A stretch of DNA of 12,408 nucleotides, from positions 1 to 12,408 of the forward strand of contig DAOVOW010000024.1 of NCBI GenBank assembly GCA_030629485.1, read 5' to 3'. This document shows positions 28 to 6,757 of the stretch, one piece after another. Position numbers and translations under genes: made by a program. How positions within the stretch are numbered: position 1 is the stretch's first letter; every line of letters starts with the position of its first letter. Source of the DNA: a bacterium. Lineage in GTDB: Bacteria; Zixibacteria; MSB-5A5; GN15; FEB-12. A model generated the notes under the pieces. The model saw nothing but the letters and a program-made list of their open reading frames with translations. It had not been told where the DNA came from and did no database searches.

Positions 28-55
28 AAAAGCCCCTCCGAATGAAGGGGCTTTT
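28..55 (-). terminator. Rho-independent terminator of the porin-cytochrome operon
   Basis: Perfect 10-bp inverted repeat: AAAAGCCCCT at 28-37 pairs with AGGGGCTTTT at 46-55, with an 8-nt loop. On the minus strand the stem ends in a TTTTCTTAT tail. It starts 19 bases downstream of the stop of the large cytochrome gene (stop at 74-76), so it ends the minus-strand three-gene operon. The stem also has a T run on the plus strand, so it may work in both directions for a gene left of the window. Confidence 0.9.
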
Positions 56-73
56 GTGTGAATAAATCTGAGA

Positions 74-2197
74 TCAGTGAGCCGGCAGCAACGTCAGAGG
101 TCTCCGAGCGGGAGCGCCGTTGGGATCACCGGTCGTCATGTAGTTGATCGATGATTGCAACAGACCCACAGCATATCGAGTGTTGTGGATGCCGTGCGAC
201 TTATCCTCATGGACGAATGTCCAATTGAACAAGGCGCCCACAGAGTCGACATTCGGTACGACCAAACCATCGGTAGGTTCCCAGGCGCCTTCGTCAGCTA
301 CCCACTCGAGCAAACCGGCAGCTATCAACTCATCCTGGAGATCATCCAGCAGGCCTGCGATCTCATCGTAAACGCCCGCGGTGTCGCCACTGTTATCGAA
401 GTCTGCATTCGCAATTCTGTTCAGACTGTCAATCTCAAAAGCGTCGGCATGGCATCCATCAACATTGCAGGCGTCGCCGTTTTCATCGCCGTTTTCGTTC
501 TTCAGGTTGAATGTATGTCCACCGAGTTCATAACGATCAGCTTCATCGAAGTGACATGAGACACAAGGATCCGTAATGCCTGAAGTATGCCAGGAATTAG
601 CGTAATCGTAACCGGCATACTCATAGGCATTTTCACCAATGAGCATGTCGGACTGGTTGCCGTGGTGCGGACCGAAATGACCACTGAGTTTCTTGCCCGC
701 TACAACATACGTGGCGACGTCGCGACGACCTTTGTGACAGTTGACGCACAGGTTGGAAAGGCCATTGTCGAATTCGGTGCCATTGCCCAGGGTTACTTCG
801 TCGGTTGTCCTGAGAACGAACGATCCGTTAGTGTGAGGATCGTGGCAGGTGAAACAGCCGATGGCGTTCCAGACGTCGCCGGCAACCTTGCCACCGGTGA
901 CTTCCGCTATGAACCCTTCATTGGTATGGCATTTTGCGCAAGATCCATTGTTGCGATCGGAGTGATCTCTGGTTGCATGCAACGAGAACTCCCACTGACG
1001 GGTGGCCGCAATCACTTTCTGGGCGAGATTGTTGGCACCGTCGTGGCAGTTCATGCAAGCATCGGTATCAGCGGTGTTCGAGGCATGCGCACGCGAGGCA
1101 TTGGAGGATGCCCAGGCCTTATCCTCGTCGGTATGGCACTTGAGACAGGTATACTCCACCGTCAGATAGCCGTTGGCAAAGTCGCCGGTGATGAACTCGG
1201 CGTCAACATCGGTATTGATTCGCCACAGGTGCGACGTCACGTCGCCAACATAAGTACCCGCCGCCACCGCCGATTTGGCTCCTTTCGGCATGTGACAATC
1301 GATGCAGCCCGGTGCGAACGGGCTGCTCAGGTGCTCTTCGATATCACTGCGGGCGAAAGACTCTGTTTCATCCAGGTGACAATTCTCGCAAGTCAGCTTG
1401 ATGGCCATATCGCGGTCGGGACTATCCGGATGCAAACTGTAGTGGACATCGTGGCAATCAACACACTGGATCGCCGCGTGCTTGGTGGTAAACATCTCGT
1501 TCCACTGTTCATGATGCCTTACGAAGTCGCCGCTGGCCGGAATCATGTTGACATCGCCATGGATATGACACTTGCCGCAACCCTCATTGGAGCGGTCGAT
1601 CTTCATTGCGATCTCGTAGGGAGTGGAAGCGTGAAGACTACCGGCGCCGTGACATTCCTCGCACTGGATGCCGCCAAACGCCCAGGTTCCGATCAGGCTG
1701 TCGTGGCCTTCCTGGTTTCCGGTATCACGATAGGCGGTCATGTGACAGGGACCGCAGTTGTACGGTTTGTCCTCTGGCACCCCATCTATGAGGTGGTAGT
1801 CAACCCAGCCTCCGGTGGCCAGGTTGTACTGTACGTCTGCACCGGTGATAATGGCGCCTGATTCACGAATAAAGCGTGCTTTCCACCAGAAGCCGCCGAT
1901 CACTTTGTCAACCTCGCTCCAGGCCACGCCCGACGGCGGGTTGGGAACGTCCGTGTACGGATAGTAGTTGCCCGCCTCGACATCCTCGGCCTCGTTTAAC
2001 TTGTAAGGGTGGCCGGTATTCACGAAGCTCTGATAAGTTGCCAAATGGCAGGCACTGCACGCTTCGCTTCCTATGTGCTCGGATAGGCCTTCGGCGGCGA
2101 CGATCTTGGTCACTTCCTCGGTGACTTTGCGTTCGCAGCCCCAGAATACCACGGTGGCAAGGACCAATCCCAGGGCCAGGAATCTGAACAGCCTCAT
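74..2197 (-). CDS. 14-heme outer-surface c-type cytochrome (OmcB/MtrC role), probable lipoprotein
   Basis: A 707-residue multiheme cytochrome, inferred to be the outer terminus of a porin-cytochrome complex that passes electrons to an extracellular acceptor. Thirteen CXXCH motifs begin at about residues 47, 148, 179, 207, 245, 270, 298, 351, 381, 420, 448, 484 and 545. A fourteenth site is CX4CH (C577-H583). The N-terminus has a hydrophobic stretch ending VFWGC (Cys21), a plausible but imperfect lipobox because Phe sits at -3, so anchoring is likely rather than certain. The last 125 or so residues carry no heme and include an HNTRYAVGLLQSS stretch resembling the C-terminal HN motif of NrfA-like cytochromes. 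There is no CXXCK site, so it is not a canonical nitrite reductase. ATG start at 2197 follows GAGGAG (2204-2209) by 6 nt; this RBS overlaps the stop codon of the barrel gene, and the intergenic gap is 10 bp. The exact acceptor cannot be read from the sequence. Confidence 0.85.
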   Translation of the reverse strand: MRLFRFLALGLVLATVVFWGCERKVTEEVTKIVAAEGLSEHIGSEACSACHLATYQSFVNTGHPYKLNEAEDVEAGNYYPYTDVPNPPSGVAWSEVDKVIGGFWWKARFIRESGAIITGADVQYNLATGGWVDYHLIDGVPEDKPYNCGPCHMTAYRDTGNQEGHDSLIGTWAFGGIQCEECHGAGSLHASTPYEIAMKIDRSNEGCGKCHIHGDVNMIPASGDFVRHHEQWNEMFTTKHAAIQCVDCHDVHYSLHPDSPDRDMAIKLTCENCHLDETESFARSDIEEHLSSPFAPGCIDCHMPKGAKSAVAAGTYVGDVTSHLWRINTDVDAEFITGDFANGYLTVEYTCLKCHTDEDKAWASSNASRAHASNTADTDACMNCHDGANNLAQKVIAATRQWEFSLHATRDHSDRNNGSCAKCHTNEGFIAEVTGGKVAGDVWNAIGCFTCHDPHTNGSFVLRTTDEVTLGNGTEFDNGLSNLCVNCHKGRRDVATYVVAGKKLSGHFGPHHGNQSDMLIGENAYEYAGYDYANSWHTSGITDPCVSCHFDEADRYELGGHTFNLKNENGDENGDACNVDGCHADAFEIDSLNRIANADFDNSGDTAGVYDEIAGLLDDLQDELIAAGLLEWVADEGAWEPTDGLVVPNVDSVGALFNWTFVHEDKSHGIHNTRYAVGLLQSSINYMTTGDPNGAPARRPLTLLPAH

Positions 2198-2207
2198 AAC
2201 CTTCTCC

Positions 2208-3782
2208 TCAGCCTATAGATATTGCTTTCGTTACACTTATTTCCACGATATTGGCGGTGTAGTACGAACCACCAGCGATGAAATCGTCGAAGTTGAACAC
2301 CTGATACTTTATCTCCAACTCATGATCGTCCAGGAAACGGTAAACCGCAGCGAAGTTCAGACTGAACTTTTCTGCGTCCCTGTCCCTTCGGCTTCGATAA
2401 TAGGTCGCGCCTACGTGTACGGTGATATCGCGATACGCTTTCGGGTATAGCGTTGCCGCTACTACGTGATCGGAGAACTGGTAGTTGATCTCATCGCTGT
2501 TATTCTCATACTTGCCTACATAATAGCTGTACCTGAGTGACAGGCGACCGTACTCGGAAGGCGTCAGGTTGCCGTCGAGCGAAATTGCATTGTAATCGAC
2601 TTTGCTTCGCAGGTCCTGGTTTTCTCTGATTCTTCCCTGCCACTGGGCGGTAAAATCCCCCCAACGATCATCGCGGTATCGTGCGGTAAGGCGATGGCGG
2701 GTGACGTTTTCATCTCCGAGCAGGGTGGTGCCGGTCTTGACTTCTTTCTTGCGAGTCGCCAGTGACGCTTTCAGAAACAACCGCTGCTGATAGTTGTACC
2801 AGCCCCTGAACAGGAATCCATGGGAGACGGTGCGGTCGACGAGATCATCCGAGATGCGGTTCTCGTAACCGATCCTCACTCCGGCGATTCGTCCTATGGA
2901 TTTGCCGACGACAATCGTGTTGATGACATTGTCGGTCTCAGAATCGTCACCGCTGTGTCGAGTGCGGGCAAAGAGGATGCGGTAGTCCAGCAGGTGACCC
3001 TTGGGCAGATACAGCTTAACCCCGCCCCAACCCTGATTGGTTTTCAGTTCCAATTCAGAAGCATCCAACTCATTTACGCGGTGGTAATAGCCGCCGCTGA
3101 GGTTGATCCAGTTGGCGCCCGGGACCAGAGTGGATGCGTCTACACGGATACTGTTGGCCTTGCGATCGCGATTGGCAGACAACTGATCGTCGAAATCGTA
3201 GCGGCGATACTCAATGCGCGCCGAGCCGTAGGGGCAGAAGGCCTGGCCACCGATATTGTACGAACTGTGAGCGTAATCGGTGCTGCTGAATACAGAATCG
3301 GATACGGTCGTTGTTGACAACGAACTGACTCCGTGTTTATCGGCTTTGGTAAATCCGCCGAAGAGTTTGGCGTTCCGGTGCGGCTGAATTGACAACTGTC
3401 CACCGGTGGTCCACCGGCGCGTAAACCTGCCACCGTCGAAATCATAACTCCGTCGATACTGGCTGTTCCTCAGTGAGATATTAAACAGACCCGGTTTGGA
3501 TGCCGAAGCTCTCAGGTTTCGATTGTTAAGGGTGATGTTATGGAGGTTCGCTTTCAGCGTCACGCCGTTGTCCCAACGGTATTTCCAGTCCTCGAAGGAC
3601 AGGCCGAACCCTTCGTAGCTGTTGTATGTCTCTTGGTTGACGGCATGGTTGCCTTCTTCGTCGATATATATGTACCCGGCTTTGACACGACCGCCACCAT
3701 CGCCGGCGAACCCGGTTGTCACCGCCCCGAGAACACAGGCAAGGACCAGCCCGGTCAGCTTTTCTATCTGAAACTGTTTCAT
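2208..3782 (-). CDS. Outer-membrane beta-barrel of a porin-cytochrome complex (MtrB/OmbB role)
   Basis: A 524-residue protein with a signal peptide (Lys8, hydrophobic to about residue 22, likely cleavage after GFA near residue 25). A mature region follows that is rich in Tyr, Arg, Asn and Asp with alternating polar and hydrophobic residues throughout, as in transmembrane beta-strands. No heme motif or other enzyme motif is visible. Its job is inferred mainly from position between two multiheme cytochrome genes: to hold the periplasmic cytochrome in the outer membrane so electrons can cross. Its length suits roughly 20 or more strands, similar to known barrels of this class. The start is chosen at ATG 3782, not the adjacent in-frame GTG at 3785: GGGAGGT (3788-3794) lies 5 nt before the ATG but only 2 nt before the GTG. 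The ATG shares one base with the upstream TGA, indicating translational coupling. The C-terminus (KAISIG) lacks the usual final aromatic residue of barrels. Sequence similarity to a named family cannot be confirmed by eye. Confidence 0.8.
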   Translation of the reverse strand: MKQFQIEKLTGLVLACVLGAVTTGFAGDGGGRVKAGYIYIDEEGNHAVNQETYNSYEGFGLSFEDWKYRWDNGVTLKANLHNITLNNRNLRASASKPGLFNISLRNSQYRRSYDFDGGRFTRRWTTGGQLSIQPHRNAKLFGGFTKADKHGVSSLSTTTVSDSVFSSTDYAHSSYNIGGQAFCPYGSARIEYRRYDFDDQLSANRDRKANSIRVDASTLVPGANWINLSGGYYHRVNELDASELELKTNQGWGGVKLYLPKGHLLDYRILFARTRHSGDDSETDNVINTIVVGKSIGRIAGVRIGYENRISDDLVDRTVSHGFLFRGWYNYQQRLFLKASLATRKKEVKTGTTLLGDENVTRHRLTARYRDDRWGDFTAQWQGRIRENQDLRSKVDYNAISLDGNLTPSEYGRLSLRYSYYVGKYENNSDEINYQFSDHVVAATLYPKAYRDITVHVGATYYRSRRDRDAEKFSLNFAAVYRFLDDHELEIKYQVFNFDDFIAGGSYYTANIVEISVTKAISIG

Positions 3783-4744
3783 CACTTACCTCCCTGACCG
3801 CTGAGACTGTGACAGCCCGGATCATAGCAATTCCCACCCAGCTTCGCAGGCAAGTCCGGATCGAGGTAGAGTTCGCTGACAAAAGAGCCGTGTGTTTCGA
3901 TATGACAGGTCTGGCAAGGTTGTCGGCTCCAAACTTCATCCCAGAGATTCTGATGGTTCCGCGTCACATGCTCGACATGACAGGAGCGGCAGAGTTCATT
4001 GCCCGGCAGTCTCAACAATCGGTCGTTTTCGCTGCCGTGGGGGTTGTGGCATTCGATGCATCCGCTGCCACCGACTTCATACGCTAGAGCAGCGCCATGT
4101 TCATGCAAAAACGGCCCGCCCTGCTCGGGGTGACAGTCTTGACAAACCCGACTCAACCCGTAGGCAGTGTTGTGGTCGGCGCGCCGGGTAAAACGATGAC
4201 AACTCAAACAGGTCATGATACCCTGACCGATGGGGTGATTGGAACGGCGCTCAAACGTGGCCTGCACGCTCTGGTGGCATCTCAAGCAGAACTCCGCTCG
4301 GTCATCCAGGAGCATCTCCCGGCCGTAGTTGTGAACTCGGTGGCACTCGCTGCAACTCAGCTCCAGATCGGCATGAGCGTCAAAACCATAGTTGTCCAAC
4401 TCCCGATGCGGCTGGTGGCATTTCCTGCAAGCGCGGCCGGTTTCCTGACCGATCAATCGCGCCGGGTTGGAAATATTGTCCTCTGACGGATCCTCCGCGT
4501 GAACCTCACCGCCGGAGTGGCAACTGATGCAGCCGATCTGGACAACCGGCTGTGAGGTCTGTGAACTAAGTCGGTGTGGGCTATCGGCCACCGATAACTC
4601 GTAATCATCGTGGCAAGCCAGACAAGTTTCGTCGTCGACAGCCGCCTCTTGTGCCAACACTGAACCTGTCAGTAGTAATATGTTCGCCCCCAACGCCCAT
4701 ATTGGAAACAGTGGTCGCTGGGTGGGCCACGCTGAAACTTCCAT
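3782..4744 (-). CDS. 11-heme periplasmic cytochrome, MtrA/DmsE type (OmaB role)
   Basis: A 320-residue secreted cytochrome. The signal peptide has Arg10, a hydrophobic core over about 11-30, and likely signal peptidase I cleavage after VLA (residue 31). There are ten CXXCH sites, at about residues 41, 72, 106, 131, 153, 179, 201, 229, 252 and 277, plus a CX4CH near the end (C306-H312). Ten to eleven evenly spaced sites in about 290 mature residues is the density expected of MtrA/DmsE-type molecular wires, which are usually decaheme and of similar length. It probably takes electrons from periplasmic carriers or the inner-membrane cytochrome and inserts into the downstream-encoded barrel. ATG start at 4744 is preceded by TGAGGT (4750-4755) at 5 nt. 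It is first in its operon and overlaps the barrel gene by one base. A role with a DMSO reductase is less likely because no molybdopterin subunit is nearby. Confidence 0.87.
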   Translation of the reverse strand: MEVSAWPTQRPLFPIWALGANILLLTGSVLAQEAAVDDETCLACHDDYELSVADSPHRLSSQTSQPVVQIGCISCHSGGEVHAEDPSEDNISNPARLIGQETGRACRKCHQPHRELDNYGFDAHADLELSCSECHRVHNYGREMLLDDRAEFCLRCHQSVQATFERRSNHPIGQGIMTCLSCHRFTRRADHNTAYGLSRVCQDCHPEQGGPFLHEHGAALAYEVGGSGCIECHNPHGSENDRLLRLPGNELCRSCHVEHVTRNHQNLWDEVWSRQPCQTCHIETHGSFVSELYLDPDLPAKLGGNCYDPGCHSLSGQGGK

Positions 4745-4813
4745 TGTTTACCTCAGTTCTTTGTCCTATTGCAGACATTCACAATCGAGATAATCTTTAT
4801 ATACTGGTTGGGC

Positions 4814-4842
4814 AAGATATGGCTCATGAACAGAAAACGCAA
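4814..4842 (-). promoter_or_regulatory. Weak candidate promoter for the porin-cytochrome operon
   Basis: On the minus strand TTGCGT (plus 4837-4842) and TATCTT (plus 4814-4819) are separated by 17 bases. This matches 3 of 6 and 4 of 6 positions of the sigma-70 hexamers. It would give a 5' leader of about 60 nt before the ATG at 4744. The match is weak and could be chance in AT-rich DNA. Confidence 0.25.
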
Positions 4843-4928
4843 CAAGAAACATCGACCAAAACAGTCTTCCTAAATAATATAGGCCTGCAAGAGTCATATA
4901 CTCTCTTGATGCTGTCGTCGGTATAAGA

Positions 4929-5010
4929 GGTGAACTTTTGTGCGCGGTGGACGTCCTCGTCTACCGCGTTCACCCCGAAAAGTTGTCGGCGCACGGGGAC
5001 GTACGCCGAC
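4929..5010. repeat. Compound palindrome with competing stems, likely a dispersed intergenic repeat
   Basis: Hairpin A: CGCGGTGGACG (4943-4953) pairs with CGTCTACCGCG (4958-4968) over 11 bp, including one G-U pair, around a TCCT loop. Hairpin B: GTCGGCG (4985-4991) pairs with CGCCGAC (5004-5010) and continues past one C-A mismatch for three more pairs to a GGGA loop. Two further inverted pairs enclose hairpin A and compete with each other: GGTGAAC (4929-4935) with GTTCACC (4968-4974), and AACTTTT (4933-4939) with AAAAGTT (4978-4984). Both hairpins contain GGACGT near the apex. This could be a dispersed palindromic element, a structured 5' leader or an operator. The sequence alone does not decide, but the foldback geometry is plain. 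Confidence 0.7.
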
Positions 5011-5209
5011 CACAAATACCAAATGTCGCTGTTCAACCCATAGATTTTTGGGGGAAAGTCCTGTAAACTTGCAACCTGAATATCTGGATCAATCAGTTAT
5101 ATTCCGCGGTCCGCCGCCGTTTGTGGTCCGGCTGGAGAAGATTGAGTCTCGGCTTTGACCGGGCCAGGACTGATTGTTGACATTGGAACGAGCATGGAGA
5201 GACCGCAAT

Positions 5210-6757
5210 ATGGTTGAGGAAGTCCAGAAAAGCCAGAAGATCAGACGACGCACGATATTCAGACATCCCTTATCCGCTATCGGCGGAGCGCTGATTATTT
5301 CCGGCGGGTTTCTGTTTCTGATTCTGCTGTTGATTGACCTTGGCAGCGGCACCGAGAACCCTTACCGCTCGCTGGTCACCTTCGTCATCGCCCCGTTTAT
5401 TATCACGACAGGTCTGGCGTTCTTTCTCGGTGCCTTGCTTTTACAGGTGCGCAAGGCGCGTAAGGCCGGTGAACAGATTCGCTTTCGACTATCGATTGAC
5501 CCCACCATTCCCCAGAACTGGCGCAATCTCTGGCTCTTCCTGGGGCTGTCGGGGGCGCTGATTTCCATCGTTGCCTATGTCGGTACCCGAGCCTACGAGG
5601 CCACCGACTCTACCGCCTTCTGCGGCGAGACCTGTCATATTGTCATGGAACCGCAGAATGTGACTTACCATAATTCACCGCACGCCAGAGTGCCTTGCGT
5701 GGAATGCCATATCGGATCCGGTGCCTCGTTCTGGGTGAAAGCGAAGTTTGACGGCATCCGCCAGATGTACGCCACCGCCTTCGACCTGTTCTCGCGGCCG
5801 ATCGAAACGCCTGTCCATGACCTCCGCCCGGCCCAGGAGACTTGCGAGAACTGTCACTGGCCGCAGCAGTTCTACGGCGACAAGCTGAGCACTCGCACCT
5901 ACTACCGGACCGATGAAGCGAATTCACCCTGGACGATCAAGTTGCTCCTGCGCATCGGCGGCGGCAACCCGCGCACCGGGCGAGCCGAGGGGATACACTG
6001 GCACATGATAGGGGATAATAAGGTCGAATACATCGCCACCGACCGCAGCAGGCAGGAGATCCCCTGGGTCCGGTTCATCACCATTGACGATGACACTCTT
6101 GTCTATTCCGATCCCGATTTCGAACTGACTGACCTGCAAATCCCGGAGACCGACAGTTCTGAAGTGGAGATTCGCCGCTTTGACTGCATGGATTGCCACA
6201 ACCGTCCCAGTCATCGTTTCCAGCCGCCGGCCGTGGCGATCAACCTGGCCCTCTCGACCCGGCGAATAAGTTCGGAGCTTCCCTGTATCCGTCAGGTGGG
6301 GCTGGATCTTCTCAACGCCGAGTATGCCACCAACGATGAAGCCCACGTGGCGATCACCAGGGGTTTGGTGGATTACTATCAAGAGGAGTATCCGGACAGA
6401 GCCGAGGCGTTGGTGGATCTGATCAAGCAGGCCTCCAGGGAGTTGACTTCAATCTACGATCAAAACTTCTTTCCCGAGATGAATACCGACTACCGGGTGC
6501 GTGAAAACAACCTCAGTCATTTCGTCAACGATGGTTGTTTCCGATGTCACGACGGTGAGAAGACCAACCAGTATGGCGAGGTGCTGTCAACGGATTGCAA
6601 GACCTGTCATTTGATGGTAGCACAGGGACCGTCGGAGGACCCGGGCGAACTTATGGCCGACATCACCGGACTCGATTTTCAGCACCCTGAAGACATTGAC
6701 GGCGCTTGGGCGGAGATGAAGTGTACCGAGTGCCACGACGCCAGCTCGGGGTACTAA
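5210..6757 (+). CDS. Seven-heme NapC/NirT-family inner-membrane cytochrome, ImcH-like
   Basis: A 515-residue membrane-anchored cytochrome, inferred to oxidise menaquinol and pass electrons to periplasmic cytochromes. Three hydrophobic helices span about residues 21-43, 54-79 and 106-126. Seven heme sites follow: CX3CH at 138-143 (CGETCH, with Met146 three residues on), then CXXCH at about 163, 212, 326, 443, 463 and 505. The spacing of the first two sites, with Tyr153 and the SPH triplet (156-158) between them, fits the NapC/NirT fold. Typical NapC/NrfH proteins have four or five hemes and one helix. Three helices, seven hemes and about 515 residues instead match Geobacter ImcH as I recall it. 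Start chosen at ATG 5210 because GGAGAG (5196-5201) lies 8 nt upstream; an in-frame TTG at 5174 would add 12 residues without such a site. It is divergent from the porin-cytochrome operon, suggesting a joint respiratory role. It has no cytochrome b domain, so it is not CbcL-like. Confidence 0.87.
   Translation: MVEEVQKSQKIRRRTIFRHPLSAIGGALIISGGFLFLILLLIDLGSGTENPYRSLVTFVIAPFIITTGLAFFLGALLLQVRKARKAGEQIRFRLSIDPTIPQNWRNLWLFLGLSGALISIVAYVGTRAYEATDSTAFCGETCHIVMEPQNVTYHNSPHARVPCVECHIGSGASFWVKAKFDGIRQMYATAFDLFSRPIETPVHDLRPAQETCENCHWPQQFYGDKLSTRTYYRTDEANSPWTIKLLLRIGGGNPRTGRAEGIHWHMIGDNKVEYIATDRSRQEIPWVRFITIDDDTLVYSDPDFELTDLQIPETDSSEVEIRRFDCMDCHNRPSHRFQPPAVAINLALSTRRISSELPCIRQVGLDLLNAEYATNDEAHVAITRGLVDYYQEEYPDRAEALVDLIKQASRELTSIYDQNFFPEMNTDYRVRENNLSHFVNDGCFRCHDGEKTNQYGEVLSTDCKTCHLMVAQGPSEDPGELMADITGLDFQHPEDIDGAWAEMKCTECHDASSGY

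Follow-up and report, generated by a model that had tools for sequence, protein, structure and literature searches.

The 12,408-bp stretch analyzed here (the window) is the entire contig DAOVOW010000024.1 (C138) of a 2.47-Mb, 83% complete Zixibacteria genome (G000), and four adjacent genes in it probably encode an outward electron path from the inner membrane to the cell surface, which we regard as the most likely reading of the locus. Three genes on the minus strand make up an apparent operon that runs from an MtrA-like cytochrome gene (4744-3782) through a beta-barrel gene (3785-2208) to the gene for a 14-heme lipoprotein cytochrome (2197-74), and the start of the barrel gene overlaps the stop codon of the preceding MtrA-like gene in the sequence GTGATGA. 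Divergently, on the plus strand, lies a gene for an ImcH-like protein, the open reading frame (ORF) of which spans 5174-6757 and encodes 527 amino acids (aa) from a TTG or 515 aa from the ATG at 5210. Among the matches listed, several of the closest named homologues are labeled Zixibacteria or Candidatus Zixiibacteriota. The computed support for the path comprises the barrel fold, the heme register of the MtrA-like wire, the ImcH hallmarks, the lipobox, the recurrence of the trio, and the nonrandom linkage of ImcH-like genes to it.

In the path that we infer, from quinol donor and direction of flow to shuttle, complex formation, surface exposure, and acceptor, the ImcH-like heptaheme cytochrome would oxidize menaquinol in the inner membrane. 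Electrons would then cross the periplasm, probably via a small tetraheme cytochrome encoded elsewhere, to an 11-heme MtrA-type wire that would sit inside a 26-strand MtrB-type barrel. From the extra C-terminal heme of the wire, electrons could move to the surface lipoprotein with its 14 hemes, and the two lobes of that protein, one OcwA/MccA-like and one NrfA-like, may deliver them to an outside acceptor, be it a metal oxide, a shuttle, another cell, or a soluble oxidant.

A first-pass annotation, made from the DNA alone, had described such a four-part locus, and its elements are real: the ORFs, the heme counts, the three hydrophobic segments, and the predicted barrel all hold. Its total of 32 heme sites (14 + 11 + 7) is reproduced provided that three variant motifs, two CX4CH and one CX3CH, are counted. 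The richness in CXXCH is not due to chance, as 2000 residue shuffles per protein never approached the observed counts, with maxima of 3, 2, and 1 versus 13, 10, and 6 in the 707-, 320-, and 515-aa proteins, respectively. The first-pass annotation had also treated a nonbarrel prediction for the 524-residue protein as fatal to its proposal, and structure prediction gives a barrel.

The 320-aa MtrA-type cytochrome (3782-4744, minus strand) has ten CXXCH motifs and one CX4CH. It matches PDB chain 6r2q_A (E 1.6e-25), with 10 of 10 CXXCH in register at 30% identity over 242 aligned residues; the PDB sequence table calls this chain cystathionine beta-synthase, the entry being the Mtr complex and the chain its decaheme protein. 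The eleventh site, the CX4CH, lies at the C terminus (3809-3829, minus strand), past the end of the MtrA match. Fourteen of 17 type-A relatives and none of 8 type-B relatives have this motif; the other three type-A relatives read C-x-C-H there, an unusual possible heme motif that appears at the C termini of the MtrA-like proteins in L055, L061, and L067. In MtrCAB, heme A10 faces MtrC (PMC7198977), so an eleventh heme after A10 would extend the wire toward the surface protein.

Structure prediction makes the 525-aa protein (2208-3785, minus strand; read from a GTG, or 524 aa from the ATG at 3782) a 26-strand outer-membrane barrel, with an MtrB-type barrel as the best fold match at 14% identity in the structural alignment. 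Searches of PDB sequences with the barrel alone or with a barrel profile gave no match. The barrel alignment comprised the window protein and 62 of 120 listed homologues, with long, diverse rows chosen. A barrel homologue, P0002, is 89% identical and an ImcH-like homologue, P0121, is 94% identical to the window proteins, and the two probably come from a further close relative that has both genes on one contig.

At the inner-membrane end, the 515-aa NapC/NirT heptaheme cytochrome (5210-6757, plus strand) is called ImcH-like by described sequence hallmarks. Geobacter-group ImcH is described, for 71 homologues, as a protein of 495 to 519 aa with three N-terminal helices, an adjacent atypical CX3CH, and six CX2CH (PMC6295460). 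The window protein shows all of these features, in agreement with the earlier suggestion that ImcH is the counterpart of the quinol-side protein. Its three putative transmembrane helices (5267-5587, from hydropathy; residues 20-48, 53-81, and 106-126) all precede the CX3CH, which is CGETCH at residue 138 (5621-5638) and is the first heme site, followed by six CXXCH. This CX3CH and an invariant Met after it are kept in 14 of 14 aligned ImcH-like sequences, window included, and the region of the first heme can be aligned to NrfH, a quinol dehydrogenase (PDB 2j7a_C, E 3.5e-5). Identity as NrfH or TorC was rejected, as the NCBIfam matches fall far under their cutoffs. By definition, ImcH also oxidizes menaquinol, as required with high-potential acceptors. 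Relatives of about 40% identity occur in phyla named by the survey of 71 homologues (PMC6295460), and no record is titled Geobacter, among the best 80 of 583 confirmed ImcH-like loci. Separately, ImcH-like proteins 56 to 60% identical occur in L090 and L093-L097, metagenome-assembled genomes (MAGs) labeled Acidimicrobiia, Acidimicrobiaceae, Actinomycetes, or Actinomycetota; either transfer or misbinning could account for them.

The outer end of the path is assigned to the 707-aa protein (74-2197, minus strand), a two-lobed 14-heme lipoprotein cytochrome judging from heme count, conservation, an AlphaFold2 (AF2) model, fold matches, and a profile search of the PDB. We aligned it with 54 of 120 listed proteins, one of them the window's own, choosing long, diverse rows; the underlying search returned only proteins of at least 389 aa and missed the shortest forms. 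Across these 55 sequences, all 14 heme motifs (13 CXXCH and one CX4CH) are invariant or at least 90% conserved, and the CX4CH is kept in 55 of 55. Within the signal peptide and lipobox (2135-2197), Cys21 is Cys in 54 of 55 sequences and is preceded by G, S, or A in 54 of 55. This conservation gives good support to a lipoprotein, even with a lipobox in the window protein (FWGC) that is weak taken alone. The AF2 model (predicted local distance difference test score, 82.5; predicted template modeling score, 0.53) has an OcwA/MccA-like N-lobe with eight CXXCH (residues 39-375; 1073-2083) and a C-lobe with six heme sites that resembles NrfA and octaheme nitrite reductase (residues 376-691; 125-1072). 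Short homologues retain the N-lobe only.

Both the fold search, in which the model aligned 100 chains, and the profile search of the PDB gave OcwA, MccA, and octaheme and pentaheme nitrite reductases as best matches. The protein has the fold of OcwA, with 14 heme sites in place of the nine of OcwA or the ten of MtrC and OmcA. We rejected it as an MtrC or OmcB homologue on these best matches, though PF22113 (MtrC/MtrF II/IV) scores above cutoff over residues 269-427; no chain of MtrC, whose fold has two split-barrel and two heme domains, is among the listed sequence and fold matches, an absence that speaks neither for nor against an MtrC-type fold. Of the Mtr-like outer parts proposed at first pass, then, the MtrA-like and MtrB-like proteins and the presence of a lipoprotein cytochrome stand, and the surface protein instead resembles the OcwA/MccA/NrfA superfamily. 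The companion caution, that the cytochromes might match families tied to a soluble reductase, proves partly true, since this superfamily includes soluble nitrite and sulfite reductases alongside Gram-positive surface reductases.

These fold matches give some room to a tentative alternative in which the outer unit is an extracellular reductase and not a general wire end: the OcwA/NrfA-superfamily protein, driven by the MtrAB-type pair, would act on one particular soluble substrate (nitrite, hydroxylamine, or a sulfur oxyanion, for example). DmsEF, proposed to power DMSO (dimethyl sulfoxide) reductase in Shewanella, would be an analogue. The profile alignment places His511-His512 (662-667, minus strand; HH in 41 of 55 sequences) exactly on the His-His pair of 6qvm, an S-layer undecaheme cytochrome, and one residue off the His-His motif on the distal side of heme 5 at the OcwA active site (motif from PMC6703420, numbering mapped here). 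A second motif in the N-lobe, His228-His229 (1511-1516, minus strand; HH in 44 of 55), is an only suggestive counterpart of OcwA HH281/282, as the sequence alignment does not match it to OcwA and 6qvm lacks an HH at that place. Just 11 non-CXXCH His are conserved at 90% or more for 14 hemes, so some hemes may be without a His distal ligand, and OcwA itself reduces nitrite slowly (PMC6703420). Against such an enzyme, the 707-aa protein has no CXXCK motif, and the N-lobe-only short homologues argue against a fixed NrfA-type enzyme. At its most speculative, and with similar doubt, the locus may encode an ImcH-driven surface respiratory enzyme, in which a Gram-negative MtrAB-type wire ends in a two-lobed protein of the nitrite/sulfite reductase superfamily whose lobes each have open hemes. 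Such an enzyme would link the Gram-positive OcwA-type terminal reductases with Mtr conduits, and a widespread uncultured phylum could then respire both solids and soluble nitrogen or sulfur oxidants extracellularly. Among other homologues of the 14-heme protein, the longer P0299, P0315, P0320, P0322, P0324, and P0338 carry PF18962, which we take to be a type IX secretion sorting domain and which suggests secretion; P0290, P0312, and P0321 carry PF09459, and P0312 is named ethylbenzene dehydrogenase/cytochrome c554 by one source.

To return to the outward path, the pairing of its inner and outer parts recurs in the phylum. Searches of 132 Zixibacteria genomes (E 1e-20 or better for the ImcH-like protein, E 1e-10 for the barrel) found the ImcH-like protein in 91, the barrel in 68, and both in 59, an association with a Fisher p of 5e-6, uncorrected for phylogeny and genome completeness. 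In 15 of the 59, no more than 10 kb of one contig separates the two genes, compared with about 0.45 expected by random placement; contig ends truncate the matches in G039, G086, and G092. This count derives from all match rows of both searches and is free of the selection that shaped our 40 annotated neighborhoods, which were partly chosen for having both genes on one contig. Within that selected set, 18 neighborhoods hold the barrel, 16 of them with adjoining MtrA-like and C14-like genes, the exceptions being L067, without the surface gene, and L069, cut by a contig end. In G034 and G037, CbcL-like, ImcH-like, MtrA-like, barrel, and surface cytochrome genes follow one another in one direction; in G002, the CbcL-like gene and a 19-heme gene come after the trio. 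The CbcL-like genes of G034 and G037 encode 11 hemes, and those of G034 and G002 were shown to include a cytochrome b561 domain.

The surroundings of ImcH-like genes are otherwise varied. A second pair, consisting of a 10-heme MtrA-like protein and a 569- to 595-aa putative barrel with one CXXCH, lies beside the ImcH-like gene in L048 (9429-12133), L049 (2230-4977), L052, L056, L058, L074, L076, and L078; Pfam scans of three of these putative barrels put one over the MtrB_PioB cutoff (24.9 bits) and assigned no family to the other two. A search of the window's own genome for a type-B barrel gave no match, an empty result that carries no weight. At 12 loci, including those of G003, G007, G019, and G025, neither pair is near the ImcH-like gene. 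The G003 locus has non-heme genes upstream of it, and its two records, L083 and L051, look like one contig (7737 bases).

The expectation that a quinol-side gene accompanies the outer trio is borne out here and, as proximity to the barrel, in relatives, and calling the module self-contained goes too far: the window encodes no small periplasmic shuttle, and a CbcL-type oxidase is often near the ImcH-like/barrel loci of relatives in the 40 neighborhoods. A candidate shuttle is a tetraheme cytochrome on contig C369 of the same genome (L175:6010-6573), 37 to 45% identical to tetrahemes near both genes in L046, L047, L048, L063, L067, and L070. Also in this genome, L174:5025-7685 encodes a fusion of an NrfD-type membrane protein with a c-type domain of six hemes, adjoining an iron-sulfur protein, and is another possible quinone-linked module.

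Several observations weigh against the outward path, the case for which is computational. The 320-aa protein scores 155.9 bits against the DmsE family TIGR03508, below the cutoff of 192.2, and we therefore term it MtrA-like and not a DmsE family member; it passes the NrfB-like PF22678 (30.5 bits, cutoff 27). With that score, and with no molybdoenzyme nearby (none among the nine window proteins in family scans), a DmsE of a DMSO reductase module was rejected. The barrel is only marginally MtrB by sequence: PF11854 (MtrB/PioB) reaches 23.5 bits versus a cutoff of 23.0, over residues 40-113 only, is precomputed for 3 of 120 listed homologues, and is not found in the relative L048:13781-15343. The ImcH-like and barrel genes are repeatedly close together, with no conserved orientation: among the 15 linked genomes, 8 have the genes on the same strand, 5 convergent, and 2 divergent. 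The divergent two are the window and G002, of one genus, so that the head-to-head arrangement is not a conserved feature. G003, of the same genus and 98% complete, has an ImcH-like gene (82% identical) and no barrel match. The genes are on different contigs in 39 of the 59 genomes, which is uninformative where contigs are short; in another 5, one contig carries both at a distance of 26 kb to more than 1 Mb. With the two apart or on separate contigs in 44 of 59, linkage is not obligatory.

That distribution, and the frequent placement of ImcH-like genes beside CbcL-type genes or the second porin-cytochrome pair, could also reflect two independent neighboring units, with the ImcH-like protein serving other acceptors and a CbcL-type oxidase feeding the trio. 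We consider this unlikely, given the excess of linked genomes over random placement, the five-gene, one-direction rows of G034 and G037, which include CbcL, and the scant trace of CbcL in the window's own, incomplete genome. There, the search found just a weak 9-heme match and a C-terminal fragment at the start of contig C39 (L172, 53-739), 66% identical to G002 over residues 475-632 and without the heme domain. The gene after this fragment sits about 10 kb further on in G002; a deletion remnant and an assembly fault are both possible.

The direction of flow is likewise a point against an outward path, in that it is not readable from sequence and Fe(II) oxidation, too, can run through MtrAB-type pairs (Mto). 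Electrons could instead run inward from Fe(II), a cathode, or a partner cell to quinone, as in MtoAB/PioAB, MtoAB being the MtrAB-type pairs of Fe(II) oxidizers (PMC6295460). Zixibacteria MAGs are reported to contain iron-oxidation genes (PMC8478452) and an autotrophic reductive tricarboxylic acid pathway with mtrAB (PMC9769843). We nevertheless hold inward flow to be distinctly improbable for this locus, with ImcH homologues reported only from Fe(III)-reducing bacteria (PMC6295460). No heme-copper oxidase was found in the 83% complete genome by a search that was positive in 8 of 14 control genomes. To our knowledge, moreover, Mto/Pio loci have no large lipoprotein surface cytochrome. A bd-oxidase family match above cutoff (45.9 bits) in the host genome tells against the preferred reading as well, since the host may then not be strictly anaerobic.

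Across phyla, an MtrA-like gene is near the ImcH-like gene in 16 of the best 80 named loci of 583 confirmed, a sample in which other phyla are underrepresented: Zixibacteria/FCB (5), Acidobacteria (4), Omnitrophota (3), Verrucomicrobia (2), Elusimicrobia (1), and Ignavibacteriae (1, with no barrel candidate beside it). Of five barrel candidates scanned outside Zixibacteria, Pfam confirms that of L160 (Candidatus Korobacter, Acidobacteria; 255 bits) and assigns no family to those of L144, L149, L104, and L118. L160 has mtrA, mtrB, a 9-heme gene, and CbcL-like and ImcH-like genes in series on one strand, the last 5.2 kb past mtrB. In L144 (Elusimicrobia), MtrA-like and ImcH-like genes are head-to-head, 2 kb apart, beside an only putative barrel candidate. 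The survey of 71 ImcH homologues reports no mtrAB/mtoAB adjacent to imcH (PMC6295460); given these loci, that statement has exceptions, and the combination is not unique to Zixibacteria.

The remainder of the window is ordinary. Genes on the far side of the locus encode a GNAT acetyltransferase, pyrF, pyrD, pyrK, and a tetratricopeptide repeat protein, and large antisense ORFs over the cytochrome genes were rejected as genes. The 465-bp region between the divergent units (4745-5209) contains one sigma-70-like site on the plus strand (mean of 0.8 in shuffles) and no repeats that we could find, and it is poorly conserved relative to G002; with nothing gained from these promoter, repeat, and G002 comparisons, conserved regulatory sites were rejected.

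Zixibacteria are described as a phylum not isolated in culture, with iron genes identified by FeGenie (PMC8478452), and Southwest Indian Ridge MAGs of this phylum are reported to contain mtrAB (PMC9769843); the iron metabolism of Zixibacteria in this literature rests on gene calls. The phylum is absent from the main texts of PMC4245776, PMC11475568, and PMC12545173. A survey of mtrCAB in 148 species of three phyla reports CymA, NetBCD, or MtoC genes in the clusters, and the words ImcH and Zixibacteria are absent from its main text (PMC8805035). In titles and abstract openings of the open-licence literature, we found neither ImcH beside mtrAB in Zixibacteria nor an OcwA-type protein on an Mtr wire described. 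In this locus, genes for an ImcH-type quinol oxidase and an Mtr-type conduit are linked, a pairing not found by the dedicated survey (PMC6295460), and an Mtr-type wire is partnered with an OcwA/NrfA-superfamily cytochrome. As a compact set, the four genes lend themselves to tests that reconstruct extracellular respiration in a laboratory host.

Comparison with known systems places the conduit as known in kind and its combination of ImcH-type oxidase, eleven-heme Mtr-type wire, and OcwA/NrfA-type surface cytochrome as new. The claim to novelty first made, for a complete module as such, was too strong, as CymA, NetBCD, and MtoC/MtrH beside mtrCAB or mtrAB/mtoAB are published (PMC8805035, PMC6295460). 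Those clusters, which may also involve MtoD and occur, e.g., in Rhodoferax, Ferrimonas, Sideroxydans, Azoarcus, and Dechloromonas, likewise unite an inner-membrane quinone enzyme with a conduit but use another inner-membrane family, and ImcH beside mtrAB is not reported in the available text of either source. MtrCAB of Shewanella (6r2q) shares the ten in-register wire hemes, the 26-strand barrel, and a lipoprotein cytochrome in the same operon; here, by contrast, there are an eleventh wire heme, a 525-aa barrel lacking a PDB sequence match, a 14-heme OcwA/NrfA-type surface protein, and an ImcH-like protein in place of CymA. ImcH of Geobacter agrees in length, helices, and heme motifs and differs in that its survey found no homologue encoded beside an mtrAB-type pair (PMC6295460). 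The porin-cytochrome complex of Geobacter (Pcc; OmaB-OmbB-OmcB) has the same three-part logic of inner cytochrome, porin, and outer cytochrome, a likeness of layout; in sequence and fold, it is the Mtr family that the present barrel and wire match. Finally, OcwA of Thermincola (6i5b), whose fold recurs in the 707-aa protein, is a Gram-positive surface reductase with nine hemes, two with open distal sites, in the cell wall, whereas its relative here has 14 heme sites in two lobes, is predicted to be lipid anchored, and shares an operon with a barrel-wire pair.

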